Shown here piece by piece: positions 3,748 to 17,187 of a stretch of DNA of 18,584 nt. The stretch is from positions 1 to 18,584 of the forward strand of contig JAJRWM010000048.1 of assembly GCA_024276815.1 (NCBI GenBank), in the 5' to 3' direction. Numbering within the stretch: the stretch's first letter is position 1; each line of letters starts with the position of its first letter. This DNA is from a bacterium (GTDB lineage: Bacteria; JACRDZ01; JAJRWM01). Below the pieces are notes generated by a model. The model worked only from the letters and a program-made list of their open reading frames with translations, had not been told where the DNA came from and did no database searches. A program made the position numbers and the translations under genes.

Positions 3748-4482
3748 ATGAAAGACTTTTTGAATGATGGTGACAACATCAAACAACTAGTGGAGAGCCT
3801 GAACTTTAAAGAAAAAGTTGAACGTTCTCTGGCGTTAATTGAAAAGGCGTATCAGGAATACGGCGACGGGCTGGTCGTGGCTAACAGTCTAGGTAAGGAT
3901 TCCATGGTTGTTTGGGACCTGGCCAAGAGAGTAAGCCCGAAGATTCGTGGTTTTATCGTAACTACCAGGTTCAAGCCGGCTGAGACAGTTAAGTTTATGA
4001 ATGATTTGGTTGTCGAGTATCCGGAGTTGGAAGTTTTTAAATGTGATGACGAAATACCTGATGAACTTTATAAAACCGCTCCTGATAAATGCTGTGATAT
4101 ACTGAAGGTCATTCCAACCAGGGACGCTATTGAAACCATGGGCGTTGGCTGCTGGGTAACGGGGTTGCGTTGTACCGAAGGACGTACCCGGGTTGACTTC
4201 AGGGAAATCGAATCCCGGGACGAAGGCTTGCTGAAACTAAATCCTATCCTGATCTGGAATGAAAGAGAAGTCTGGCAATACCTGGCTTTATACAAAGTCA
4301 AGGTAAATCCGCTCTATGCGGAAGGTTATCGTTCGCTGGGCTGCGCGCCCTGTACCAGTATCTCAACAGACCCCAACGAACGGGACGGACGCTGGATCGG
4401 TTCCAGTAAATGCGGTGGCGAATGCGGTATCCATACCCGTCCGCTGAAAGTTAAGCTACAGGAAAACACAACCTCCGCTTAA
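3748..4482 (+). CDS. cysH: Adenylylsulfate (APS) reductase, iron-sulfur type
   Basis: A 244-residue PAPS/APS reductase. Enzymes of this type reduce activated sulfate to sulfite and AMP (or PAP) using thioredoxin. The PP-loop SLGKDS is at 47-52. Two cysteine pairs, C115-C116 (DKCCD) and C199/C202 (GCAPC), are the CC...CxxC set that binds a [4Fe-4S] cluster and marks the APS-specific form. The C-terminal catalytic Cys is in ECGIH (C226). WVTGLRCTEGRTR (136-148) is the conserved substrate-binding segment. The ribosome site AAGGAG is correctly placed before the ATG. It is followed after 12 nt by siroheme-synthesis genes and then a siroheme sulfite reductase, giving sulfate-to-sulfide steps from APS onward. 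No sulfurylase is visible in this window. Confidence 0.93.
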   Translation: MKDFLNDGDNIKQLVESLNFKEKVERSLALIEKAYQEYGDGLVVANSLGKDSMVVWDLAKRVSPKIRGFIVTTRFKPAETVKFMNDLVVEYPELEVFKCDDEIPDELYKTAPDKCCDILKVIPTRDAIETMGVGCWVTGLRCTEGRTRVDFREIESRDEGLLKLNPILIWNEREVWQYLALYKVKVNPLYAEGYRSLGCAPCTSISTDPNERDGRWIGSSKCGGECGIHTRPLKVKLQENTTSA

Positions 4483-4494
4483 CAGGGGGAAAAG

Positions 4495-4953
4495 TTGGAT
4501 TATTATCCAATCAACCTGAAAATAAAGGGCAGAAAGGTTTTAATTGTTGGCGGCGGCCAGGTCGCACGGCGAAAAATGGTGAGTTTGCTCGATGCCGGCG
4601 CCAAAGTTACTGTCATAAGTAAAACTTTTCTGCCCGATTTTACCCGTCTGGCGGATGAAGGTCGAATATCTATCGAGAGGGGGGGATTCTCACCTTCATC
4701 GTTATCGGGAGTTTTTTTGGTTATTGCGGCCACCAGTGACCGGGCGCTAAACAGGTTAATCGCTGAGCGGGCTAAAGAGAAAAATATACTGGTTAACGAT
4801 TGCGGCGATCCGGAAAATTCCAGTTTTATCAATGTCGCGGCCTGGGTTAAGGGTAATATTTTGTTGACTTGTTCGACCCAGGGGCGTGATCCGGCCCGGG
4901 CGAAGGAAATAAAAGAAATATGTCGCGATAATTGCCGTCTTCCTGATGATTAA
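4495..4953 (+). CDS. sirC: Precorrin-2 dehydrogenase (SirC/Met8/CysG N-domain), short form
   Basis: A 152-residue Rossmann protein that should oxidise precorrin-2 to sirohydrochlorin with NAD+ in siroheme synthesis. The NAD-binding motif VLIVGGGQVARRK (about 14-26) and the Met8-family end LLTCSTQGRDPARAKEIKE are clear. Family members are usually about 200 residues or longer; this one stops right after that motif and lacks the C-terminal helical/dimerisation and chelatase region, so iron insertion may need another protein. The start is TTG at 4495: AGGGGGA lies 4 nt upstream and the homologous N-terminus (YYPINLKIKGRKVLIVGGG) begins there. It overlaps the frame of the next gene at ATGATTAA, indicating translational coupling. 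Confidence 0.85.
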   Translation: MDYYPINLKIKGRKVLIVGGGQVARRKMVSLLDAGAKVTVISKTFLPDFTRLADEGRISIERGGFSPSSLSGVFLVIAATSDRALNRLIAERAKEKNILVNDCGDPENSSFINVAAWVKGNILLTCSTQGRDPARAKEIKEICRDNCRLPDD

Positions 4954-4963
4954 GGTGAAAAAG

Positions 4964-5740
4964 ATGAAAAAAGGTATTATCTATCTTGTCGGAGCCGGGC
5001 CGGGCGATCCTGAACTGATTACCGTTAAAGCTTTTAATATTATTAAAAAAGCCGAAGTTATCGTTTATGACAGCCTGATACCTTTTCAGCTTCTCAAGAA
5101 TGCTCCGGTTAACGCTGAGTTAATCCCCGCCGGGAAAAGAGCCGGTAATCATATCCTGGTTCAGGAAAAAATAAATTCTATTTTACTGAACAAAGCTAAA
5201 TCGGGTAAAATAGTCGTCAGGCTCAAAGGCGGCGATCCCTTCGTTTTTGGCCGGGGAGGGGAAGAAGCTTCATTTCTTATTGCCAACGGAGTGGAAGTCA
5301 GGGTCGTTCCCGGGGTCAGCTCAAGTATGGCCGTCGCTCTGGCGGCCGGTATACCCCTGACCCAGAGAAATCTGGCAACCTCGATCGCCATCATTAGCGG
5401 TAGCGACAGTGTGGGGGAAGCGCCAAAGAACATTCCTCGGGCCGACACCGTGGTTTTTTTAATGCCCAAAAGAAACCTGAGGAAAATTGTCGATAATCTG
5501 CTCGAACAGGGCTTCAAGAGTGATATCGATTGCGCTCTGGTGGAGAACGGCACCAAACCTAACCAGAGGGTTGTTCGTAAAAAGCTAGGGGAGTTTATTG
5601 ACTTTGCTGATGTGGGTAAAATCGCCGGACCGGCTATTTTTATCGTCGGGGAAACGGTCGCTCTGGCAGATACGCTAAGCCAGATATATCAACAGTATAC
5701 TGAAAACATTGAATATAATTATGCCAGGAAAAAAATATGA
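4964..5740 (+). CDS. cobA: Uroporphyrinogen-III C-methyltransferase (SUMT)
   Basis: A 258-residue SAM-dependent methyltransferase that converts uroporphyrinogen III to precorrin-2, the first step toward siroheme and cobalamin. Diagnostic motifs are GAGPGDPELITVKA near the N-terminus, GGDPFVFGRGGEEA, VVPGVSS and GIPLTQR. The frame can start at an ATG at 4946, but I prefer ATG 4964: AAGGTG lies 6 nt upstream and MKKGIIYLVGAGPG is the normal family start. There is no fused uroporphyrinogen-III synthase domain. It overlaps the next gene by ATGA (5737-5740), so the two are coupled. The sulfite reductase next door makes siroheme the likely end product. Confidence 0.93.
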   Translation: MKKGIIYLVGAGPGDPELITVKAFNIIKKAEVIVYDSLIPFQLLKNAPVNAELIPAGKRAGNHILVQEKINSILLNKAKSGKIVVRLKGGDPFVFGRGGEEASFLIANGVEVRVVPGVSSSMAVALAAGIPLTQRNLATSIAIISGSDSVGEAPKNIPRADTVVFLMPKRNLRKIVDNLLEQGFKSDIDCALVENGTKPNQRVVRKKLGEFIDFADVGKIAGPAIFIVGETVALADTLSQIYQQYTENIEYNYARKKI

Positions 5741-6582
5741 CTAAAAATACCAGCAAAGCAAGCTTGCGGGGGAAAGTAAGACAGTCTGATAAAAAATATT
5801 TTACCTTGCGTTTCCATATTACCGCCGGCCAATAAACACTCGATGAACTGGAGGCCATTAAAGAACTGGCCGCCAGGTTCGGCCGCGATGAAGTACATCT
5901 GACTACCAGGCAGGGCCTGGAAATTTCCTGGCTGAAGGTGGCGGATCAGCAGGCGATAAGCGATTACCTTAAGGAAAAGGAACTCAGAACCGGTTCCACC
6001 GGCCCCAGGCTAAGAAACGTGAATGCCTGTCCGGGAAATACTCTTTGTCGCTTCGGTTTGATAGACTCGCCAGAGTTGGCAAGACGCATAGATAAAACCT
6101 TTGGTGAACGGGAGTTGCCGTCAAAAATGAAAGTCGGGGTTAGCGGCTGTCCTAACTCCTGCGCCAAACCCCAGATTAATGATCTGGGGATACTGGGCGC
6201 GGTTTATCCGGGATTTATCCGAAAAAATTGTACCGCTTGCGGCGCTTGTGTCAGGATTTGCAAGGTGAAAGCTCTTGAATTGGTTAACTCAAAGATAAAA
6301 TTTATCCGGCGTAATTGTGTTTATTGCGGGAATTGTGTCCGAACCTGCAATCATGACGCGGTCATCGCTAAAAAGCAAGGTCTTAATCTCTACGTTGGCG
6401 GAAAAGTTGGTCGTAAACCATTAATCGGGCATAAATTGCTCTCTTTTTATGACCAGGAGCGGATAATCGATCTTCTTGATAGATTATTGCTTTTCTATCG
6501 CGAACATGGTGAAAAAGGTGAACGACTGGGGCAGTTTATTAAAAGAATTGGCTACTCTGATTTTAAACTGAAGATACTCTAG
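5737..6582 (+). pseudogene. Siroheme sulfite reductase with two ferredoxin clusters, interrupted by in-frame TAA
   Basis: A small sulfite/nitrite reductase expected to reduce sulfite to sulfide. From ATG 5737, coupled to cobA by ATGA, the reading gives 32 residues ending RFHITAGQ, then TAA at 5833-5835, then continues in frame with TLDELEAIKELAARFGRDEVHLTTRQGLEI. That segment is the conserved ferredoxin-like half-domain of the family, so the two parts belong together. Later come the siroheme-[4Fe-4S] ligands CPGNTLC (98, 104) and CPNSC (138, 142), then two ferredoxin motifs, CTACGACVRIC (165-175) and CVYCGNCVRTC (194-204). The whole is ~280 residues, close to AsrC-like enzymes. Only one base pair of damage is needed (for example TTA or CAA to TAA). 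A restart at GTG 5938 would lose much of the first domain. The final TAG lies at the edge of a palindrome. Confidence 0.85.
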
Positions 6583-6619
6583 AGCAAGTGTAATAAGTAT
6601 AAAGTTTTAACTTGCTCTA
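6580..6619. repeat. 10-bp palindrome at convergent gene ends, related to the repeat family
   Basis: TAGAGCAAGT (6580-6589) and ACTTGCTCTA (6610-6619) form a perfect 10-bp inverted repeat with a 20-nt loop. The first three bases are the sulfite reductase stop codon. The arms resemble the terminal repeat of the larger element (TAGAGCAAAGTGCAATC at its right end, 8207 downward), so this may be a minimal copy. It lies between convergent genes and could also act as a weak terminator, though no long T-run follows. Confidence 0.5.
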
Positions 6620-6623
6620 AAAC

Positions 6624-8198
6624 TCAGTTTTTACGGCCGATGACAATCGTTTTGACCTTCTGGTCGGCGCCCCCGTCATTGGTGGTTTTGAGATATAAAA
6701 TATAGATACCGACCGGCACCGAATTGTCAAACTCGTCGCGGCCCCGCCAAAACAACTGGTTATCGCCGCCGGGCATACTTTCGCCTCTCTTTATTTTACG
6801 GATCAAGCGGCCGGCCGTGTCATAAATCACAGCCGTGACTTTAGCTTCGTTCGCCAAATAAAAACTGATCGCCGCTTTTCTTTTTCCAGGGTTATTATCA
6901 TCCAGCCAGACGGGATTGGGTTTTATTTTTAAGGTTGAAATTTTGGCGCTTTGGGACGGCTCGATGTCCACAGCGTCATTATTCGTCCCGGGGTTGTATG
7001 TCCCGGAATCGGCGATTATCCAGTCAGCAGCGCTATTGCTGTCTTCGTTGCCCTTTCTCTCAAGAAGCTTGTCGGCTACAACCAGCCGACTGTCGATACA
7101 ACTGTCAGCCTTGTTTGAATCCCACTCGCCGGCTAAAAACAGTTCGTTCAAATCAGCCGCCTCTTCATTGGCGAGAACTCCGTCACTCCAGCAGACCGCG
7201 TCCAGAAATTGGTCATTATCATCGACAAAAACTATTTGCTCATCCGTGCTAACCAGTCCGTTGACTGTGGTATAGAGGTCCAGAATCCCGTTCCGGTTAC
7301 CGTCAGCGCTGGATGTTTCATCGGGTTCACTGCTGTTATAGGTTATCTTCAATGTTTCCCCGCTACGGATGGTCACGTTATCGATTACCTTGTCAGGATT
7401 GGCTAAATCTGTTATATAATAATTAGCTATGTCTAGGCCGCCGCCGTTGTTCCCATCACTGAGACAGAGTATTTCCACCCAGTCCGGCGGATTCCTGAAA
7501 TTTACCCGCTTGATTAAAAAACTCGACTGACTAGTCACAAGCAGACTGTTTTTTTCACCCGGCGTACCGTTCCGCCCGCCCAGATTCCCGGTCGAATTGC
7601 CCCAGTTGCTTGAGAGGTCACCGGGTAAATCAGGGTTTTCCCTTTCCATCGAAACGCCGGAGGGAGAGTCCATTCCGGCAAACCAGTTCATACCCGGTCT
7701 GTTGGCAACGTCAACCGTTAATCCAGCGGCGTCTTTGAGGCTCAGGTGGTCTCCGGTCAAACGGCCTAAATTCAGAACCGCCAGATGATCTGACGGGATG
7801 AAGGTCGCGGCTTCGTCTTCCTCAATTAAAAAGTAGCCGCCGGCCGGGAAGTTAACGTTGGGCAGGGTGGTGAGCAAGCCGTTTTTATTACTAATAGTCC
7901 AGTTGGACAAATTGACCGGCTGACCAGAATTATTGTAAAGCTCAAGGTACTGAAGTTCATCCCACATTATTTCGTTGATGACAACTTGAGCCTGAAGAAA
8001 ATTACTGAGTAAAAACAGGATTATTACCAGGAGAGGTTTTGAGCTTTTCGCAATCAGATGTAATGCCTTTGCCGTAGACAGATTAAGGTTTTTGTGTGGG
8101 GGTCTTAGGGGGAGCGGTTTTTTTCTATATCTATCGACGAGCTGATTTTTAGCGAAGTCTAAAACAGTTCCCCCTAAAAACTGTATACTTGATTGCAC
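6624..8198 (-). CDS. Exported lamin-tail-domain protein with FlgD-like C-terminal module
   Basis: A secreted protein of unknown role. Counting from the GTG at 8198, residues 56-70 (PLLVIILFLLSNFLQA) are a signal peptide with cleavage near A70. VVINEIMWDELQYLELYNNSG (72-92) opens a lamin tail domain; a second similar unit begins near VNFRNPPDWVEILCLSD. The C-terminus (from about 425, KIKPNPVWL) is a FlgD-like Ig fold ending in a D-x-x-G-R-x-I...GIYILYLKT pattern seen in Bacteroidetes-type and candidate-phylum cell-surface proteins. The N-terminal ~52 residues are encoded by the repeat at 8041-8207 and are unlike any signal peptide. The native start is therefore uncertain: it may have been replaced by the repeat, or may be a non-ATG codon near 8056-8045 (CTG or ATT). 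Confidence 0.75.
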   Translation of the reverse strand: MQSSIQFLGGTVLDFAKNQLVDRYRKKPLPLRPPHKNLNLSTAKALHLIAKSSKPLLVIILFLLSNFLQAQVVINEIMWDELQYLELYNNSGQPVNLSNWTISNKNGLLTTLPNVNFPAGGYFLIEEDEAATFIPSDHLAVLNLGRLTGDHLSLKDAAGLTVDVANRPGMNWFAGMDSPSGVSMERENPDLPGDLSSNWGNSTGNLGGRNGTPGEKNSLLVTSQSSFLIKRVNFRNPPDWVEILCLSDGNNGGGLDIANYYITDLANPDKVIDNVTIRSGETLKITYNSSEPDETSSADGNRNGILDLYTTVNGLVSTDEQIVFVDDNDQFLDAVCWSDGVLANEEAADLNELFLAGEWDSNKADSCIDSRLVVADKLLERKGNEDSNSAADWIIADSGTYNPGTNNDAVDIEPSQSAKISTLKIKPNPVWLDDNNPGKRKAAISFYLANEAKVTAVIYDTAGRLIRKIKRGESMPGGDNQLFWRGRDEFDNSVPVGIYILYLKTTNDGGADQKVKTIVIGRKN

Positions 8199-8207
8199 TT
8201 TGCTCTA
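8041..8207 (+). mobile_element. MITE-like palindromic repeat, copy 1 (most complete)
   Basis: The ends are imperfect terminal inverted repeats: GAGCTTTTCGCAATCA (8041-8056) against GAGCAAAGTGCAATCA on the minus strand (8205-8190), 11 of 16 matching. Inside is a perfect 9-bp inverted repeat, TTAGGGGGA (8105-8113) and TCCCCCTAA (8169-8177). Bases 8132-8162 match 17290-17260 on the other strand at 30 of 31 positions. The left part (8046-8100) matches 12961-13020. There is no ORF for a transposase, so any mobility would need a protein encoded elsewhere. It carries the YchF stop codon at its right end and the N-terminal codons of the next gene. Confidence 0.65.
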
Positions 8208-9248
8208 AACATTGAAGCGGAAATTAATGATGTCGCCATCCTGAACTTCATATTCTTTACCTTCAGAACGGGCTTTGCCGGCTTTTTTGGCGCCCGCTTC
8301 GCCACCGTATTCCACAAAATCCCGGTAGGCGATGACCTCGGCCCTGATAAATCCACGCTGAATATCAGAATGGATCACGCCGCCGGCCAACGGAGCTTTA
8401 CTGCCGCTTTTAACAGTCCAGGCCCGCACTTCATCCTTCCCGACAGTGAGAAAAGAAACTTGGTTCAATAACCGGTAGGCGGTCTGAATAAAACGATCAC
8501 GGGCGACTTCGGTAATCCCCATCTCTTCCATGAACATAGGCCGGTCATCCTCGTCAAGGCGGGAAATTTCCAGTTCCATCTGACCGTTAATCACAATTTG
8601 AGGTACTGAATCTTCAGACAATACAGCGGTTAAGTCCTGATAATCAGGCTGACTGTCGTCAACATTAATCAGGCTCAATAATGGTTTCAGGGAAAGAAAC
8701 TGGTAACCGCTGATAAGTTTCAGCTCAGCGTCACTTAGTTCCAGTGTTCGCAAAGAGTTTTCCTTCTCGATCCAGGCCAGACATTTTTCCAGGACGGCCA
8801 GTTCCAGGGGATTAGTCGTCTTGCCCTTTTCTTTCCTGATCCGGCTTACCCTGTTTTCAAGAATTATCTGATCGCTGATGATAAGTTCCGCGCTGACCTC
8901 GTTATACTCATCCAGAGGCTTGGCCGCGCCGCCCAGATTGCTGTTAAAGCCGCGGATTACCAGAACCAGGGCCTGGCAATTCCTGATGTGTTGATAGATA
9001 GCGGTTTGCGTATTACGATCCGGATTGGGAGGCGCCGGTATATCAACGAAGTTGATTTCGGCGGGAACCGTTTTTTTAGGCTCATATATTGAGGTCAAAT
9101 AATCCAGCCGGTCATCAGGCACCTTGATATTACCCAGATTTGGCTCAATCTTACCGCTGAAGTCAGCGGTTACAGCATCCAAACCGGTTAATAAATTAAA
9201 AATCGTTGTTTTACCTGACTGGGGTTTGCCAATTATTCCTAAACGCAT
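8205..9248 (-). CDS. ychF: YchF/Ola1 P-loop ATPase
   Basis: A 347-residue Obg-family protein; YchF proteins hydrolyse ATP rather than GTP and associate with ribosomes and stress responses. Seen here: Walker A GKPQSGKT (7-14), the switch region DFSGKIEPNLG with conserved VPDDRLDYL following, the Walker B-like FVDIPA, and a C-terminal TGS domain (RAWTVKSGSKAPLAGGVIHSDIQRGFIRAEVI ending YEVQDGDIINFRFNV). The usual NxxE specificity motif appears as NVDD near 195. The length is normal for the family. The final TAG lies in the terminal repeat of the adjacent mobile element. It is transcribed away from the cysteine-rich repeat protein, with 140 nt between the two starts. Confidence 0.95.
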   Translation of the reverse strand: MRLGIIGKPQSGKTTIFNLLTGLDAVTADFSGKIEPNLGNIKVPDDRLDYLTSIYEPKKTVPAEINFVDIPAPPNPDRNTQTAIYQHIRNCQALVLVIRGFNSNLGGAAKPLDEYNEVSAELIISDQIILENRVSRIRKEKGKTTNPLELAVLEKCLAWIEKENSLRTLELSDAELKLISGYQFLSLKPLLSLINVDDSQPDYQDLTAVLSEDSVPQIVINGQMELEISRLDEDDRPMFMEEMGITEVARDRFIQTAYRLLNQVSFLTVGKDEVRAWTVKSGSKAPLAGGVIHSDIQRGFIRAEVIAYRDFVEYGGEAGAKKAGKARSEGKEYEVQDGDIINFRFNV

Positions 9249-9375
9249 TTCCAGGACATCATATCAACAAGCAAAGCCCAGGTCAAGCAAAGTCTCTGTT
9301 AAAACAGGGTTATTCGCTTCTTTGGAAGAATTCCTGAAATATGGAAAAATAGTGCTTTCCTCGGTTTACATAAGG

Positions 9376-9381
9376 TATAAT
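9376..9381 (+). promoter_or_regulatory. Candidate -10 element just upstream of the four-repeat protein
   Basis: A perfect TATAAT ends 7 nt before the ATG at 9389. If used, the transcript would start at or within a base of the ATG, giving a leaderless mRNA. No good ribosome site lies in the usual place (AAGG at 9372-9375 is about 13 nt from the ATG) and no convincing -35 is seen. Confidence 0.35.
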
Positions 9382-9388
9382 AATCAGC

Positions 9389-10495
9389 ATGACGGAACAA
9401 AAGTGTTGCCTGGAATATTCCCGGAGAAAAATTAAAATAAGCGGTAGTTGCGCTTCCTGCCTGGGTGTTTTTAGGGATGGCGATATCTTAAACGCAAGCG
9501 ATCTGATTCCGGACGGCATGTGCGCTTTTCTTTATCAATCCTGCCTGCCATACCTGTTGACTCTGGTCGGGAATGGTTGGTTAAAGTGGTCTTTGGACAA
9601 GAATTCAGTTGATACTCAGTGTTGTTGTTCTGGTGGCGTCCAGGTGGCAGTGAGAAAGGTTAACTCCGCCGGCCAACTGACGGTGCGAGCGCAAGTAGTT
9701 TCAGCCGGTCCGGCTTGCTTGAAGCATAAGGTCGGCGCCCAGTTTATTCTTTACCCCTGGGGCAAAAACTCCTGTCCGCATCTTTTTCACAGCTTGTTCC
9801 CGCGAATTCTCAGCGCGTCGGAAAACATCGGCGACAAGGAGACTCTTTGCGTAAGTCCTTTAGCCGGGTTAAGAGCCGGCGTCATCACGGAGTCTGATTC
9901 AGCCAAAGCCCGGGATGTTAAGGTGAAAACGTACGATTCGGTCACGGTTAAGAGTTTTAGCAATAGCTGTATTTACTTCAGAAAAACAGGTAAGATTTTT
10001 ACTCTGGGGCAATTGACGCCGGACGGCATCTCCCCTGAATCCTTTTACCGGGTATATCCCTATTTTTTAGCAGCTCTTTATGACGGCGTTAATTCAGACG
10101 AAGTATATTTTCCCTCAATACGTTGCGTTGGTAACAACGGAGATTTTTTTTGGCGGCTCACTCCTGAAAACTATCTTTTGAAGTTGTTTTTGAACCTGGT
10201 GGAGTTTGGGTTACGCAAGGTAAAGCGACCCCAGGATGTTGTTGACAAAAAGATAACCCTGACTCCGGTGACTGGTTCAGGCGACAGCTCGGTTTTGCCG
10301 GGCGCAGCGAAGAGTTTTACTCATAGTCATTATAGTAATTATCTGCTTGACAGAAACTTTTGCCCGGCTGTTTTTTACCAGATATACCCGGTTCTTTTCG
10401 CCAACCTGGGAAATGCTGGTGAATTGATCTGCCCGTCAGTCGTATCGGGGATATGCCTGAAACTGGGAAAAACAACCGGTCCGGAAACGTGTTAG
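9389..10495 (+). CDS. Cysteine-rich protein with four degenerate TIGR04076-like repeats
   Basis: A 368-residue protein with no signal peptide and 18 cysteines. It appears to be four divergent copies of a ~75-residue unit like the small TIGR04076 family: a Cys-containing strand, a G-x-x-F/I-x-L turn, a C-x-x-(L/F)-(F/Y)-x-x-(L/Y)-P helix, then a C-terminal strand. Approximate repeats are 10-91 (GMCAFLYQSCLPYLLTL), 97-168 (NSCPHLFHSLFPRIL), 184-258 (GISPESFYRVYPYFLAAL) and 290-361 (NFCPAVFYQIYPVLFANL). Repeat 2 is closest to the family (CLKHKVGAQFIL). TIGR04076 proteins are uncharacterised and normally single-domain. Cysteine use differs between repeats, so uniform metal binding is doubtful. 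The start at ATG 9389 lacks a good ribosome site; no better Met lies before residue 44. Confidence 0.7.
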   Translation: MTEQKCCLEYSRRKIKISGSCASCLGVFRDGDILNASDLIPDGMCAFLYQSCLPYLLTLVGNGWLKWSLDKNSVDTQCCCSGGVQVAVRKVNSAGQLTVRAQVVSAGPACLKHKVGAQFILYPWGKNSCPHLFHSLFPRILSASENIGDKETLCVSPLAGLRAGVITESDSAKARDVKVKTYDSVTVKSFSNSCIYFRKTGKIFTLGQLTPDGISPESFYRVYPYFLAALYDGVNSDEVYFPSIRCVGNNGDFFWRLTPENYLLKLFLNLVEFGLRKVKRPQDVVDKKITLTPVTGSGDSSVLPGAAKSFTHSHYSNYLLDRNFCPAVFYQIYPVLFANLGNAGELICPSVVSGICLKLGKTTGPETC

Positions 10496-10581
10496 CGGCA
10501 AGCTGAGAGAGTGTTTTGAGAGCTGATGGGCATAAGAAAATAGACCTTTTAATAGAAATATAAAAAAATGTAAAATATTAT

Positions 10582-10610
10582 TTGACAGGTCAATATAAAG
10601 GTGCTAGTAT
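10582..10610 (+). promoter_or_regulatory. Promoter with operator-like palindrome before the small RHH-like gene
   Basis: TTGACA (10582-10587), a 17-nt spacer and an extended -10, TGC-TAGTAT (10602-10610). A perfect inverted repeat TTGAC-AG-GTCAA (10582-10593) overlaps the -35 box, a classic place for repressor binding. The next gene encodes a likely ribbon-helix-helix protein, so autorepression is a reasonable inference. Confidence 0.55.
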
Positions 10611-10673
10611 TCAGGTATTATTTGCTGTAACGTTAGTAAAGATCATAATTACGAGGGGAGTGAGAGCATTAAA

Positions 10674-10907
10674 ATGTCAAGGGCGGATTACAAAAAAGTA
10701 ATTATTACCATGCCAGCCAGGATGATTGAGTTCCTCGATTCAATTGGCCAGAAGTCGCGTCGCACCCACGGCTATAAAGTAGCGAATACTGAAATCGTTC
10801 GGGCACTGATTACCGCTTCCAAAAAGCTCAAGATTAATTTCGAAGGCTTGAAGAGCGAAGAAGAATTAGTGGCGAGAATCCTTGAGGCTGCCAAAGCCTT
10901 TAAATAA
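10674..10907 (+). CDS. Small ribbon-helix-helix-like protein
   Basis: A 77-residue basic protein with the layout of a ribbon-helix-helix DNA-binding domain. An N-terminal strand KKVIITMP (7-14) is followed by helix A (ARMIEFLDSIGQKSRR) and helix B starting ANTEIVRALITASKKL, where the N-T/S-E-I-V-R-A-L pattern is typical. The THGYKVA stretch between the helices is longer than in minimal CopG proteins. A C-terminal helix (EELVARILEAAKAF) follows. It is most likely a transcriptional regulator or antitoxin-like protein, though no toxin gene is adjacent. The ATG lies 13 nt after GAGGGGAG, longer than ideal. It ends just before a strong hairpin. Confidence 0.6.
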   Translation: MSRADYKKVIITMPARMIEFLDSIGQKSRRTHGYKVANTEIVRALITASKKLKINFEGLKSEEELVARILEAAKAFK

Positions 10908-10915
10908 AAAAGTTA

Positions 10916-10945
10916 CCCCCATTGCCGTTGACGCGGCAGTGGGGG
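10916..10945 (-). terminator. Strong hairpin terminator, with U-tract on the minus strand
   Basis: CCCCCATTGCCG (10916-10927) pairs with CGGCAGTGGGGG (10934-10945) over 12 bp with one G-T wobble and a 6-nt loop. On the minus strand the stem is followed by TAACTTTTTTATTT, a good intrinsic terminator for the DUF362 gene at 10951-11865. On the plus strand no T-run follows, so termination of the RHH-like gene would be weaker. Confidence 0.8.
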
Positions 10946-10950
10946 GGACG

Positions 10951-11865
10951 CTAAAGCAACATATTTTCTTCCCACCCCAGCTTTATCAAATCTATTTTAG
11001 CCATGTCGCTGTTGCCTAGGTGATAGGTTTTATCCGCAATCTCAATGTGTTTCGGCGGCGGATTGATTAACCAGAACTCGTTCTTGTACTCATTGCGTTT
11101 CGCCTGCAATATCTGCAAACAAACAATATCAACAGCCACCGGGTCGTCGCCAACGATAATTCCCCGATAATCCCAGATATAACGAGGATCTACCTGGGGA
11201 CCGCCATTGAAAAGAGCTTTTACCGCGTCAACAACAATCAGACGCGTCTTGTCTTTAACCAGGGGCTTGGTCCACACTTTTCCCAAGTTTGCGCAGGAAT
11301 CAGCGTGATACATACTGGGCACCATGGTGGTATTAATATAATTTTTCAAAGAAGCGGCGATTCCGCTCAACCAATGTGTTTTCAATCCCGGGACATTTAT
11401 CAGGGCATTACAGTCGGCGAACTGGCTGAACGCCTTCTTGTCCGCTACTTTAATATGGTTAAATCCGATACCTGATTTTTCCAGGCTCGCCCGCATGGCT
11501 TTGAGAAGAGGTGGGCTGGTTGGCATCATGTTGGAACTGCTTTTAATACCTATTTGGTCGCTTGGACTGAACAAACTTTTCCAGGCGGACGATGGTTTTA
11601 TCTCACCGGTAAACGCCATAACAGCACTATTCAGCATTTTCTTGATGATCTCGGGCTTAACCTGGCTGTTCTCGTCCAGAACATTCTCATTACGAACAAT
11701 GATCACCCGCGAAGTTTTCCGGGGGAGACCCCAGCTTTTGGCTGTTGTGAGCCGGCCAAGTAATATCTGTTCGGCTGTTAGCAGGCCAACCGCGGCGCTG
11801 ACAGCCTGATACGCGGTTCCCCTGATAAAATCACGCCTGGTAACGGTCTTTGATTCCTTCATCAC
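10951..11865 (-). CDS. DUF362 protein with a Tat signal peptide
   Basis: A 304-residue protein that begins with a twin-arginine signal (TRRDFIRG, RR at 10-11, then AVSAAVGLL), so it should be exported folded. The mature part is DUF362, shown by NALINVPGLKTHWLSGIAASLKNYI, the conserved pattern in which a Lys-Thr-His motif precedes a K-N segment, and by GGPQVDPRYIWDYRGIIVGDDPVAVD. DUF362 proteins are uncharacterised; some are fused to ferredoxin domains, but this one has none. The start is GTG 11865 or ATG 11862, both after AGGGG at workable spacing. It has its own predicted promoter and lies after the DUF6599 gene and before a strong terminator, ending the minus-strand block. Confidence 0.85.
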   Translation of the reverse strand: MMKESKTVTRRDFIRGTAYQAVSAAVGLLTAEQILLGRLTTAKSWGLPRKTSRVIIVRNENVLDENSQVKPEIIKKMLNSAVMAFTGEIKPSSAWKSLFSPSDQIGIKSSSNMMPTSPPLLKAMRASLEKSGIGFNHIKVADKKAFSQFADCNALINVPGLKTHWLSGIAASLKNYINTTMVPSMYHADSCANLGKVWTKPLVKDKTRLIVVDAVKALFNGGPQVDPRYIWDYRGIIVGDDPVAVDIVCLQILQAKRNEYKNEFWLINPPPKHIEIADKTYHLGNSDMAKIDLIKLGWEENMLL

Positions 11866-11915
11866 GAATCACACCCCTCTATGAGTTGCGAACCACCAGC
11901 GCCATGTATCTATTG

Positions 11916-11945
11916 ATATTACCACAAAATAAATTTAATTTCCAA
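11916..11945 (-). promoter_or_regulatory. Predicted promoter of the Tat-DUF362 gene
   Basis: On the minus strand TTGGAA (11945-11940), an 18-nt spacer ending TGG, and TAATAT (11921-11916) form an extended -10 promoter. It lies in the 114-nt gap after the restored end of the DUF6599 frame and about 50 nt before the Tat-DUF362 start. Confidence 0.4.
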
Positions 11946-11979
11946 TAAAAATCAAATTTTCAATAAATCAGTTATCCTT

Positions 11980-12888
11980 TTACTCGGCTGAATTAAAAAT
12001 ATTCTTAATGTATTTGTCATCTTTCGCTTCAAATATTAGATAGATGTATCGCCCTGAAAGCTTCGCTCCAAGGTGTTCTTTGTTCTCAATCAAACGTATT
12101 GTTTCAGTCTCTGTCGGAGACGGCAGTTCCGGAAAAAAGGCTTTGTTGAATGAATGATATGATTTTTAAGCTTCTTCATCATCCGGGTATTCGATGATAA
12201 TCAACCTGGCTTTTTCAGAATCATTTACTTTATATCGCGCTGAGACTGCAAAGGTTTTCTCTGATAAATTGAGGATATTAGCGGTAGCGAGAAAGTAAAT
12301 ATTGTTAAGAGATGTATTTTTATGAAAATAGCTGACTGAATCAGGAATCAGGTCGGCGGACGGCAGTTTCTTCAGTAAACCGGGCTTTTCGCCGGCTTCA
12401 TTCAATCGCTCGAATAACTGTCGGGCGAAGGAGAGGATAAACTGTTTGTTATCGGAAGTTTCCCGCATAGCGACCAGGCGGATAAAAATATTACTTTTCC
12501 AGCCCTTCAAAAAGCCCTGGGCATAGATGGCATCGTGCCCCATCTCAACCTTCTTGCCATCAAGATCGTGCGAGTACACTCCGAAAGCGTCTTTGGAAGT
12601 CGCCATCCGGTAGATTTCGACATTAACCGGCTCGCTGTTCCCCTTCTTATATTCACCAACGTACAAGTCAGTGAAATCATAGGCCAGGTAAAATTCTCCT
12701 GCTCCGTCCATATAATCGAAAATATTCTCCCGGTCATACCTGCGAGCTTTTACAGTTAACTTCCAGCCCGCGAACTGTTCAGGTAAAAATGATTCCACCT
12801 CCGACCTCGCAACCATAGCGGCCCCGACTTTGGCCGCGTTCAAATAAATCATCAGTATCGAAAGAAAGAAAAACAAAATTAATTTCAT
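11980..12888 (-). pseudogene. Exported DUF6599 family protein, split by one in-frame TAA
   Basis: A secreted protein of unknown role. The start is ATG 12888, after AGGTGGAAG; the frame is open upstream to a start codon at 12933 but that adds only 15 non-signal residues. MKLILFFFLSILMIYLNAAKVGAA is a signal peptide. FDYMDGAGEFYLAYDF and VEIYRMATSKDAFGVYSHD are typical DUF6599 motifs. After 240 residues ending IIEYPDDEEA a TAA occurs at 12166-12168. The same frame then continues 61 residues (KSYHSFNKAFFPELPS ... HLGAKLSGRYIYLIFEAKDDKYI) to TAA at 11980-11982, and this stretch matches the expected C-terminal part of the domain. The protein is therefore either truncated by ~20 percent or read through. 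It follows the ATP-grasp/FMN gene across a repeat. Confidence 0.75.
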
Positions 12889-12956
12889 ACTTCCACCTGT
12901 CTGAATAATAAAACAGAGTGTGACATAAAGCAACTAAATAGAAATGAAAATGCTAT

Positions 12957-13055
12957 TAAAGCTTGTTCGCTAGCCAGATGTAAGAGCCTTTGTCATGGAC
13001 TGACTAAAGTTTTTGTGGGGGATTGGGGGCGGTGTTTTTCAAAAAGAGCCCCCAA
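12957..13055 (+). mobile_element. MITE-like palindromic repeat, copy 2
   Basis: TAAAGCTTGTTCGCTAGCC and the following CAGATGTAA, GCCTTTG and TTTTTGTGGGGG segments align in order with copy 1 (8041-8100). The internal arms are TTGGGGGC (13023-13030) and GCCCCCAA (13048-13055), a perfect 8-bp stem enclosing a second TTTTT-C-AAAAA stem. Relative to copy 1 the arm changes are matched on both sides. It lies 17 nt after the ATP-grasp/FMN stop and upstream of DUF6599. The central 31-nt core of copies 1 and 3 is missing. Confidence 0.6.
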
Positions 13056-13071
13056 GGTACTTCTTATAAAT

Positions 13072-15288
13072 TCAGGGAAAGATTATCCGGCTGTCAATAT
13101 CCTCAATCTTGCCACAACCGGTCAGAATCATGGAGTGCTTTAACTCCTTGATGATCTGGTTCAGGATTAAACTTACTCCCTGTTCCGCGCCTCCCACGGC
13201 TCCGATGCAAACCGGCCGGCCGACCAGTACCGCTCTGGCTCCCAGCGCCAGGTATTTCAAGACATCAAGCCCGGTCCGCACGCCGCCGTCCACCATGATG
13301 AATACCCGGTCGCCAACGGCCTCGACAATTCCCGGCACAACGGTCGCGCTTCCCGGCATGTAATCCATAACCCGACCGCCGTGGTTGGAAACGATGATCG
13401 CTTTGGCCCCGGCTTGAGCAGCCAGGACAGCTTCATCCTTGGTCATAATACCTTTCAGGATGAATGGCAAGGAGGTGCTGTTAACAATGGCCCGCAGTTC
13501 TTCCAGGTTTTTGGGGCCAACCGCTTGTCCCTTCAGGGCCATGGTGATAAAACAGGCGGCGTCAATATCCAGTCCGACCGCCAGCGCCCCGGCGTCTTCA
13601 GCGGCCCGTATCCGTTCAATAACTTCCGCCGGAGATTTTCTGGGCTTGAATATTGGTATGCCCCAACCATTGTTTTCCTTGATTGCCCGGGTGCCGATCA
13701 GGTATTTGTCCGGCGTGGCGCCGTCGCCAAGCATGGCGATAGTGCCGGAATTTTTGCTCCCGCTGATTACCGCCTTAACGTAGCTTTCCTCATCGATCGC
13801 TCCGCCCAGATTGGTGTTCGCTCCGGTAATCGGGGCGATTAATACGGGAGAGTTTAACTTGTAGCCAAAGAAATCAAGATTGGTGTCAGGTTTGCTGTAG
13901 TCGTGGATAGTCCTTAAATTTACCTTAATCGCCGCCAGGGCGGAAATATTATTTTTGAAGGAAGCGCCGGTGCCGACACTGCCGATTCCCGGCATTCGTC
14001 CGGCGCATTCGACACCGTTACAAACCAAACAGACCCGGCAAATCTTTTTAAACTTTTCCCTGGCCCTTCGTTTAACTTCTTCCAGGTCCAGGGTAGGCAC
14101 GCCGATTTCAATATTGATTTTACTTTTAGCCTCGGCCATGCGGTTCAAAGCTTCCTTGCGGTTTTTGCCTACGGCGATTAGATTGCCGGCTTTTCCCATA
14201 TTGCTTTTCACCTGCTGGATTGTTTCGCCGGCCTTGGTATTAATGATCACTTCGGCGATTCCCTCAACCGCGAGCGCGGCCTCAACCCCGGTGATTGACA
14301 CGACTTTGCCCGGCGGCGGGATGATCGCTTCCTCAACGGCCACCAGTTTAAGGGTTTCCTCGATTTCCGGCGGCTGTCCCAGGGCGATCTTGATCGCACC
14401 CCGAATAGAGTTGCCCCCGGTAGCCAGAGGGTAGGTATAGGTTGACATAAAGCCGCCGCTTAACCGGGCGGCGATTTCACCGACCTTGGGGCCGTCGGGA
14501 GTAATCTTGATGTCTCCCTTGGCGGCGCCGTGATCTATCCCCAAGGCTTTGATCGCTTTATCCATGAGTTTGCAGGCCGCTTTAATGGCGCTGGCCGGTA
14601 AATTAGAAGGGAGAATGTGTCCGGTTTCAACAAAATAGGGAGGAAATTCAATAACGCGGTCGGCGATTCCGGTATAGGTGATAGCGCCATCATAGATCAA
14701 AGCGTCGATACTCAGCTCCGGTCCGCTCATAAACTCCTCAATAATTATCTCGCCGCAGGGCGACAGGTTTTTAGCTTCATCAAACGCCCCTCTGAGGTTC
14801 ACCAGTTCCTCGATCTTCTTGACGCCTCTCGCTCCCATGTTGTCGGCGGGTTTGATGACCACCGGCTTGGCCAGGCTCTTGAAAGCGTGCACGGCTTCAT
14901 CATAGGTCCAGACCCCGAAGAAGTCGGGTATTGAGACTTTCATGTCCCGCAAACGCTGTCTCATCTTGATCTTGTTGGTCGCCATTTCCGCCACTTCATA
15001 GCGGATTCCCGGCAGTTGCAGAGCGTTGGCTACAGCGGCGACAGTCATGGAGGCGTCGGTGCCGATAGTCAAAACGCCGTTAATCGCTACCGAACGATTA
15101 ATCTCTTTGGCCAGCCGGACAGTGCCCTCAATGTCTTTGGTGCTGATGATGACCGGATAATCAGCGATCTTCAAGCCAATGGCGTTAGCGTCATAATCCG
15201 TGACAATTGTCCGGTAGCCCAGTTTCTGGGCTTCCTTGATAGCGGGCAACTGCATGAGGCCGCCGCCGATAATCATAACGTTGGGCAA
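13072..15288 (-). CDS. ATP-grasp ligase fused to FMN-dependent alpha-hydroxy-acid dehydrogenase
   Basis: A two-enzyme fusion of about 738 residues. The N-terminal half is an ATP-grasp protein of the carbamoyl-phosphate-synthase/amino-acid-ligase type: VMIIGGGLMQLPAIKEAQKLGY preATP-grasp fold, KPVVIKPADNMGARGV nucleotide loop, EIIIEEFMSGPELSID, and GPKVGEIAARLSGGFMS with the metal-binding E and R. A carboxy-terminal ligase subdomain follows. From about residue 400 (TLDLEEVKRRAREKFKKICRVCLVC) begins an FMN-dependent dehydrogenase of the lactate/glycolate oxidase fold, with KGIMTKDEAV, catalytic His in SNHGGR and DGGVRTGLDVLKYLALGA. I chose TTG 15288: GGAG lies 8 nt upstream and it is 2 nt past the aldolase stop; a longer frame to 15372 overlaps that gene. 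The two normally separate enzymes probably act on linked substrates; which ones is unknown. Confidence 0.88.
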   Translation of the reverse strand: MPNVMIIGGGLMQLPAIKEAQKLGYRTIVTDYDANAIGLKIADYPVIISTKDIEGTVRLAKEINRSVAINGVLTIGTDASMTVAAVANALQLPGIRYEVAEMATNKIKMRQRLRDMKVSIPDFFGVWTYDEAVHAFKSLAKPVVIKPADNMGARGVKKIEELVNLRGAFDEAKNLSPCGEIIIEEFMSGPELSIDALIYDGAITYTGIADRVIEFPPYFVETGHILPSNLPASAIKAACKLMDKAIKALGIDHGAAKGDIKITPDGPKVGEIAARLSGGFMSTYTYPLATGGNSIRGAIKIALGQPPEIEETLKLVAVEEAIIPPPGKVVSITGVEAALAVEGIAEVIINTKAGETIQQVKSNMGKAGNLIAVGKNRKEALNRMAEAKSKINIEIGVPTLDLEEVKRRAREKFKKICRVCLVCNGVECAGRMPGIGSVGTGASFKNNISALAAIKVNLRTIHDYSKPDTNLDFFGYKLNSPVLIAPITGANTNLGGAIDEESYVKAVISGSKNSGTIAMLGDGATPDKYLIGTRAIKENNGWGIPIFKPRKSPAEVIERIRAAEDAGALAVGLDIDAACFITMALKGQAVGPKNLEELRAIVNSTSLPFILKGIMTKDEAVLAAQAGAKAIIVSNHGGRVMDYMPGSATVVPGIVEAVGDRVFIMVDGGVRTGLDVLKYLALGARAVLVGRPVCIGAVGGAEQGVSLILNQIIKELKHSMILTGCGKIEDIDSRIIFP

Positions 15289-15290
15289 AC

Positions 15291-16043
15291 TTAAATCTCC
15301 AGCCTTGATTTTAATACCGCTACACGTTTTTCCATCATCCTGACAAAATCGGCATAAATCTTCTTCTTCCATTCCAGGATGGCGATCTCAAGCTCAAGAG
15401 CTTTTTTAATCGCCAGGGGGTAATCGACGCCGGCATTGACTTTGAAGACCAGGTTGCGGGTATTCACCTTGTCCGGCCTGATTCGCTCGATGATGCTATT
15501 GACGTTGGCCGGATTAACGTTGCCGCCAACCGAGATCAGCAAACCGGCTTCTTTTCCCCGACTAGCGATATCCGCTGCGATCTCATACATCCGGGGACTG
15601 TCAACATTCTCCCCCAGAGAGGAAGACAAGTCGCTGCGTCCGATACTGAACTGGTCAAGTTTTTTCAAATGCGGTGAATTTATGATATCCGGCAGGTTGG
15701 CGTAAGCGGTTTTGGTTTCAATATTGACGCCTTTTTGCAGTTCCTTCAATTGTTTAGGCGACGCGATAGCTTCCAGAGCGTCGATGAAGTTACGCAAGCC
15801 GTACTCGGATTCGACCATGGGAGCGGTCAGACCGTCCACCCCAAGGCCGATACAGGTTCGGATATCGCCGCGGGCTTCCGGTCCGCCGATTTTGATAGTG
15901 ATTGGCAAAACGCCGCCCAGCAGGTTGATTCTTTCTGATATTTCGGCGAAAACCAGTCCCTCGGCCTCGGTTTCCATCTTGTAGGAGACGCAGTTAAACC
16001 TGTCCTTAAGTTCCTGCGCCGCCTGACGTATTTTGCTCTCCAT
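15291..16043 (-). CDS. HpcH/HpaI-type aldolase (citrate lyase beta-like TIM barrel)
   Basis: A 250-residue protein of the PEP-utilising TIM-barrel superfamily whose members cleave or form C-C bonds with pyruvate- or acyl-CoA-type substrates. Evidence is IKIGGPEARGDIRTCIGLGVDGLTAPMVES at the second strand region, IETKTAYANL with the metal-ligand Glu, and FSIGRSDLSSSLG, the equivalent of the HpaI G-x-N-D-L-S motif. HpaI lacks the long C-terminal helix, which may be present here (IKKALELEIAILEWKKKIYADFVRMMEKR). The ATG at 16043 has AAGGAAAG just upstream. It starts 27 nt after the DUF362 stop and ends 2 nt before the ATP-grasp/FMN start, so the three are very likely co-transcribed. The substrate is not predictable. 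Confidence 0.8.
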   Translation of the reverse strand: MESKIRQAAQELKDRFNCVSYKMETEAEGLVFAEISERINLLGGVLPITIKIGGPEARGDIRTCIGLGVDGLTAPMVESEYGLRNFIDALEAIASPKQLKELQKGVNIETKTAYANLPDIINSPHLKKLDQFSIGRSDLSSSLGENVDSPRMYEIAADIASRGKEAGLLISVGGNVNPANVNSIIERIRPDKVNTRNLVFKVNAGVDYPLAIKKALELEIAILEWKKKIYADFVRMMEKRVAVLKSRLEI

Positions 16044-16070
16044 AGCTTTCCTTCCGCGACTATCAGCGCA

Positions 16071-17156
16071 TCATTTATATTTTTTAAAAAGTTTACCCCA
16101 GCCGCTGTTCAGGGCTTTTTTCACCCGTCCTTTGCCATGAAAAGGGAACCAGTAATAATCATGGTACAGGATCGAGGCGACATACGACCAGGGAGCCAGA
16201 ACCGTTCTCAACAAGAGTTTTTCCAGGAACTTCAAAGGCCCCCAGTAGATTAATTTCTGTCCCTTGGAAGCGAAGGTGTTCTGGTTGCCGGTAAAGTGGA
16301 AATTAACCTTTGAAATATCTTCTCCGACCACCTCTATCTCGCTCACCTCACCGCAGCCTAAACCGGCTTCATGGGCCAGTCGGATAAATTTCAGGCTCAT
16401 GGGGTCAAAGCCCATCATCTTGGCCGAGACAGCGTCAATCGCGACCTGGTCGTTGCTGGCCAGGATATAGTCTTTAACGTAGGGCACCATGCAGCGTGGG
16501 CCGGGGCCGTCACCGGCGAAGGTTCCGTCCATCACGGCGAAAATTCCGGTATGTATTTCTTTTTGTATCGTCAAAAGGTCGACCAAAGTTTCGTGAATAA
16601 CTGAATGGGTACAGTGACGCTTCTCATGCAGCAGGCCGCCAAAGGCGTTTTTCATAGCCCCGGTCATGGTTGTAAACACGTGTGTTTTCATGGTTGGCAG
16701 ATGAATAATATTCTCACCGATGAATCGTTTGGGTATCTGGATTCCCTTCGGGAAAATATCGTGGAGTACCCTGATTTTCCCCTTTGGTTCATACTGGACC
16801 CATTCCTGACCTTCATAGAGGTGGATATTCCTCAGCCCGTATTTTTCCACTACCGGTTTTTGTTTGTTGAGAACTTCGCCTTTGTGGGAATTGACGACGA
16901 CCGTACGGTTATGACAGGCGTGGATCAAGTCTTTGCTGTAGCCATCTTCGAGCATAGTCTTGATAACGCCTTACAACTGCCAGGGAGTGGTCGAGCAGGC
17001 GGGATAAAAATGATGCCAGGAAATATTAATTTTCAAGGCGGTATCTTTGTCCTTGGGCAGATATTTTTCATATTCGGCGAGCCGCATCAACCTGGCGTAA
17101 TCCTCGAACACGGTTTCCGGCTTGGTCTTTAGAACAACAACCTTGGATTTACTCAT
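16071..17156 (-). pseudogene. DUF362 family protein, interrupted by one in-frame TAA at codon 62
   Basis: The start is ATG 17156, with AGGAG 6 nt upstream; a GTG at 17174 is less likely. Residues 1-61 (MSKSKVVVLKTKPETVFEDY ... ACSTTPWQL) run into TAA at 16971-16973. The same frame continues GVIKTMLEDGYSKDLIHACHNRTVVV and on to TGA at 16071. Related proteins as I know them read PWQLEGVI at this place, so the TAA looks like a single GAA-to-TAA change. The rest is typical DUF362: IIHLPTMKTHVFTTMTGAMKNAFGG, GDGPGPRCMVPYVKDYILASNDQVAIDAV and AHEAGLGCG. There is no ferredoxin domain or signal. It is the first gene of the aldolase/ATP-grasp-FMN operon. A restart at ATG 16955 would yield a 294-residue product lacking the first ~67 residues. 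Confidence 0.85.
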
Positions 17157-17187
17157 TAAAAGCTCCTGTTTCACGATAAGTTGAGCT

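Follow-up and report, generated by a model that had tools for sequence, protein, structure and literature searches.

In bacteria, stop codons are reassigned in genetic codes 4 and 25, and the pseudogenes of decaying genomes carry nonsense codons in otherwise recognisable genes. G>T changes also occur among raw short-read errors generally. In reassignment systems, one codon is given to one residue, a matching tRNA is present and terminal use of the codon is depleted. Among phages, TAG is read as Gln in crAss-like phages (PMC9523058). Two papers (PMC12390751; PMC5994075) describe artefactual G>T substitutions in short reads, including those caused by oxidised guanine (8-oxoG); their data are deep human reads, from which consensus removes the artefacts. 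No paper on artefactual stop codons in metagenome-assembled genomes was returned by our literature search.

The window analysed here is a stretch of 18,584 nucleotides that forms contig C212 of a metagenome-derived draft genome, denoted as G000 (2,389,529 bases in 246 contigs, 91.4% complete and 3% contaminated). An earlier note had reported one in-frame TAA in each of three genes of the window, and all three were borne out at their positions (Table 1). Each gene has exactly one in-frame stop, located inside the gene and not at its end, and uninterrupted relatives align across each site; the three genes are truly interrupted in the deposited sequence. With high confidence, we attribute the three TAA codons to erroneous single-base substitutions in a metagenome-assembled genome whose consensus rests on thin coverage. 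Like the reassignment systems of phages and bacteria, G000 contains in-frame stops in conserved genes genome-wide. In contrast with them, the interruptions in G000 involve three different stops, which together amount to only about one per 22 kb of coding sequence and stand in for many residues; all three codons still terminate, and no such tRNA was found among the 32 tRNA genes read. G000 also resembles decaying genomes in having nonsense codons in recognisable genes, but it differs from them in the lack of frameshifts and in having stops in essential genes that are present only once. With the 8-oxoG artefacts, G000 shares single-base substitutions without indels, G>T-biased where the change can be deduced, although in G000 the errors would have survived into the consensus, which would need low coverage.

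Table 1. Interrupted genes, their in-frame stops and other loci; positions are those of the window unless a sequence handle precedes them.
Feature	Position	Strand	Remark
Siroheme-type sulfite reductase gene (Fsr/AsrC-like, ~281 codons), one interruption	5737..6582	+	Pfam NIR_SIR + NIR_SIR_ferr, TIGR02912-like
In-frame TAA, sulfite reductase	5833..5835	+	codon 33
DUF6599 gene, one interruption	11980..12888	-	PF20244; homologues
In-frame TAA, DUF6599 gene	12168-12166	-	~6 codons past Pfam domain end
DUF362 gene, one interruption	16071..17174	-	PF04015 spans stop
In-frame TAA, DUF362 gene	16973-16971	-	Glu/Asp in nearly all homologues
prmC (release-factor methyltransferase), beside prfA, cut by TAG at 10362	L105:9850-10602	-	
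CRISPR cas1, cut by TAA	L076:9440-10312	-	
cysH to sulfite reductase cluster	3748-6582	+	
Cys-rich protein gene	9389-10492	+	368 aa
Second DUF362-like gene	10954-11865	-	uninterrupted
Fusion gene	13075-15372	-	766 aa

The ATG of the sulfite reductase gene and the stop codon of cobA, the gene upstream, overlap, and the Pfam NIR_SIR_ferr match covers residues 15-80 of the sulfite reductase, spanning the in-frame stop. Fsr homologues in the PDB align through the site, which is occupied in homologues by an aromatic or hydrophobic residue (Y in Fsr, V in nitrite reductases). In the case of the DUF6599 gene, the domain evidence alone is weak, as PF20244 ends about six residues before the TAA. Full-length homologues from five other genomes are aligned on both sides of the stop, over residues 16-299 of 302, and are stop-free. 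The DUF362 protein has uninterrupted homologues that are 73-77% identical to it, and in a further 80 homologues the site is occupied without exception by Glu, Asp or His. At 102 near-invariant positions of this protein there were 0 other deviations; these positions comprise few bases, and the result is allowed by an error rate of 0.1% without lending it support.

The survey of stops covered 971 kb of the 2.39 Mb genome (100 further contigs and the window). A genome-wide count had been proposed in the earlier note and turned out to be the right test, with all three stop codons found. A scan by coding potential for a coding-stop-coding pattern in one frame yielded 112 candidates, among which all three stop codons were represented. 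The candidates were then scanned as read-through proteins against NCBIfam and Pfam, and most of them showed a single domain or a full-length family spanning the stop, while adjacent same-frame gene pairs (e.g., pilB-pilM on L112) were dropped by domain layout or by eye. The confirmed list, which is partly a matter of judgement, contains at least 39 stops interrupting conserved genes, with 23 TAA, 13 TAG and 3 TGA. The 39 stops are spread evenly over the contigs (p 0.64). Two contigs of the genome, C34 and C44 (L062 and L072), are N throughout.

As a control, 800 kb of a genome of the same phylum, G003, was scanned, and most of the hits were normal genes in tandem, the second starting immediately after the stop of the first. 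When non-overlapping coding-scored genes of G003 were aligned to G000, 19 stop sites were obtained in 228 kb of aligned sequence, about 13-15 of which were convincing, whereas no frameshift was found in the same 228 kb against about 14 convincing stops. The reverse alignment, with G003 as the target, gave five weak stop sites and no convincing one. The nearest relatives of G000 in the comparison set are three genomes that share only its phylum. No internal stops were found in strong matches to the corresponding gene stretches of G001, G002, G003, G012, G015, G027 and G045. An apparent TAA in the adenosylhomocysteinase of G001 and an apparent TGA in the pyrH of G012 were rejected, as each match passes the C-terminus of the fragment in query coordinates and the codon is probably the gene's own end. 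The excess of stops over the healthy genome G003 is real, in line with what the earlier note had supposed for the window; about 0.7 stops would be expected there at the genome rate versus the three found (Poisson ~3%), in a window that was chosen for standing out. The additional statement that the stops are always TAA and never TAG or TGA holds within the window but not genome-wide, and the window pattern is a matter of chance, with a probability of about 0.2 for three TAA in a row at the genome-wide stop proportions.

Glu was the commonest homologue residue at the stop sites, being found in about a dozen genes, including DUF362, prmC, ptsI, fabH, cas1, ygiQ, rplA, nuoG, plsX, adenosylhomocysteinase and a CNNM protein. 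The other residues were Gln in phoH, Lys in rarA, Ser/Thr/Ala at the second site of pyrH, a Leu-type residue in rpsA, Gly in a TonB receptor and a Tyr-type residue in the sulfite reductase, while no clear ancestral residue was found in homologues for the murF sites and the first pyrH site. Since the homologue residues point to G>T, the changes that can be deduced seem to be mostly G>T. On the codon usage of G000, G>T/C>A predicts TAA, TAG and TGA at 0.54, 0.31 and 0.14, and the observed values were 59, 33 and 8%; uniform substitution also fits acceptably and only slightly worse than G>T, and A>T fits acceptably as well, so that the counts alone cannot separate it from G>T. Transitions predict 0.19, 0.57 and 0.24 and fit far worse. 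The specificity for TAA that had been implied is not upheld, given that 23 of the 39 stops are TAA against the predicted 0.54 and that TAG and TGA interrupt genes too. The excess of Glu at the stops can be attributed to the same substitution spectrum, G>T/C>A acting on the codon usage of G000. Comparison of G>T missense asymmetry with G003 had low power owing to too few sites, and the tRNA stems, in which few bases are involved, showed at most one unexplained mispair.

From these data, we infer that the stops originated in sequencing or assembly, through low coverage and possibly oxidised template DNA, and not in the cell. At a low depth of one to three reads per position, the consensus would inherit read errors, and substitution errors at roughly 0.1% per G, mostly G>T on the coding strand, would fall on codons that a single change turns into a stop. 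Assuming that Glu codons gave rise to about two thirds of the 39 stops, the rate would be about 0.14% per first-position G in GAA/GAG. The visible stops would be the tip of wider substitution errors across G000, and in the living cell the genes would most likely be intact and end at their normal stops. Consistent with consensus errors, all three stops occur, many residues are replaced, the stop proportions match the codons one base away from a stop, and essential and dispensable genes are hit evenly over the contigs. Among the options that the earlier note had left side by side (decay, strain mixture or consensus error, and readthrough), consensus error fits best, whereas decay and suppression fit poorly.

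Genuine nonsense mutations of recent date, which genome decay or a G:C>T:A mutator would have fixed in the lineage, would also place stops in the deposited sequence, where they are indeed present, and stops occur close together in pairs slightly more often than expected (p 0.02), as in dead genes. We consider this origin improbable. Decay is a poor fit, since essential genes present as one copy are interrupted and no frameshift occurs in the 228 kb aligned, even though decay produces frameshifts as readily as nonsense codons. The only copy of murF over the family cut-off, at C211:3757-5040, contains two TAA, and the only copy of pyrH, at C8:6248-6940, contains a TAG and a TAA; stops also interrupt rpsA, fabH, plsX, nuoG, ptsI, clpX, prmC, rarA and trigger factor. 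No free-living cell could do without murF, pyrH, rpsA, fabH, plsX and nuoG. In pseudogene formation, dispensable genes should be hit and essential ones spared, but single-copy essential and dispensable genes are hit alike in G000, and the DUF362 protein is otherwise fully conserved at the 102 near-invariant positions. In terms of a mutator, no clear mutY was found in G000, which is 91% complete, only a weak and probably Nth-like match, and its absence could raise G:C>T:A changes. However, mutM is present and intact, and a mutator would not rescue cells that lack murF or pyrH. Moreover, natural mutation commonly gives transition-type stops, which are not favoured here.

Tolerated readthrough, in which a suppressor tRNA or slack termination translates through the stops, seems very improbable. 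Poor termination is imaginable, since a TAG interrupts prmC, the neighbour of prfA, and the predominance of Glu at the sites could be taken in the same sense. Nevertheless, suppression is a poor fit: none of the tRNA genes read would decode a stop, and the residue replaced varies from gene to gene. The tRNA with anticodon UUA, which the earlier note had suggested looking for, was absent from the tRNA genes read, as were those with CUA or UCA; 32 of 33 were read, the remaining one being a class II tRNA on C167, in a genome that is 91% complete. Instead of one stop encoding one amino acid, TAA, TAG and TGA all interrupt genes and replace at least six kinds of residue. RF1 is intact, and the other release-factor match, a weaker one, has no interruption. 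Long open frames end in TAA (184), TGA (150) and TAG (88), so none of the three is rare as a terminator, and the previous exclusion of a wholesale code change stands. The base after the stop was A in 14 cases, G in 14, C in 7 and T in 4, which is the ordinary composition of codon starts and contains no leaky-stop signature.

It is also very unlikely that the assembler joined alleles from a mixture of strains, only some of whose cells have the stops. The genome is metagenome-derived with 3% contamination, which speaks for a mixture, but no living strain would bring nonsense alleles of essential genes into the consensus, and all three stops occur in many genes, evenly over the contigs. That the stops are real and read through by a cell in which the cut prmC makes termination slack and near-cognate tRNAs insert amino acids at TAA, TAG and TGA is extremely improbable; such a free-living bacterium would tolerate about 100 nonsense codons, including those in the only murF and pyrH. 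Current knowledge of termination would be challenged by a free-living cell of this kind, were the stops real.

With consensus errors as the preferred explanation, the interrupted genes are most likely not a biological feature. Draft genomes from metagenomes can hold enough single-base errors to interrupt roughly one gene in every 20 kb, and the result can look like recoding, readthrough or genome decay. Such cases can quickly be told from biology by counting all three stops, looking at essential single copies and frameshifts, and checking the residue in relatives. The best named relative of the DUF362 protein (L169) is 82% identical and is located on a Margulisbacteria contig with a coverage of only 2.2; other genomes from thin assemblies of this kind may contain the same type of error.

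Several other loci were also observed in the window. The second, diverged DUF362-like gene lies directly downstream of the DUF6599 gene and encodes a twin-arginine-like signal (RRDFIRG). The fusion gene encodes an unusual pairing of an ATP-grasp ligase-like half with an FMN-dependent alpha-hydroxyacid dehydrogenase-like half, and it overlaps the end of the adjoining citrate-lyase/aldolase-like gene. The Cys-rich protein has three similar modules (C..GD..., P.GMC/P...Y..YP) and no NCBIfam match; by eye, it looks like a tandem TIGR04076-type repeat. The sulfite reductase gene belongs to a compact cluster with cysH, the N-terminal part of siroheme synthase and cobA, and because the cluster is compact and its genes overlap, it likely represents an assimilatory sulfite pathway.
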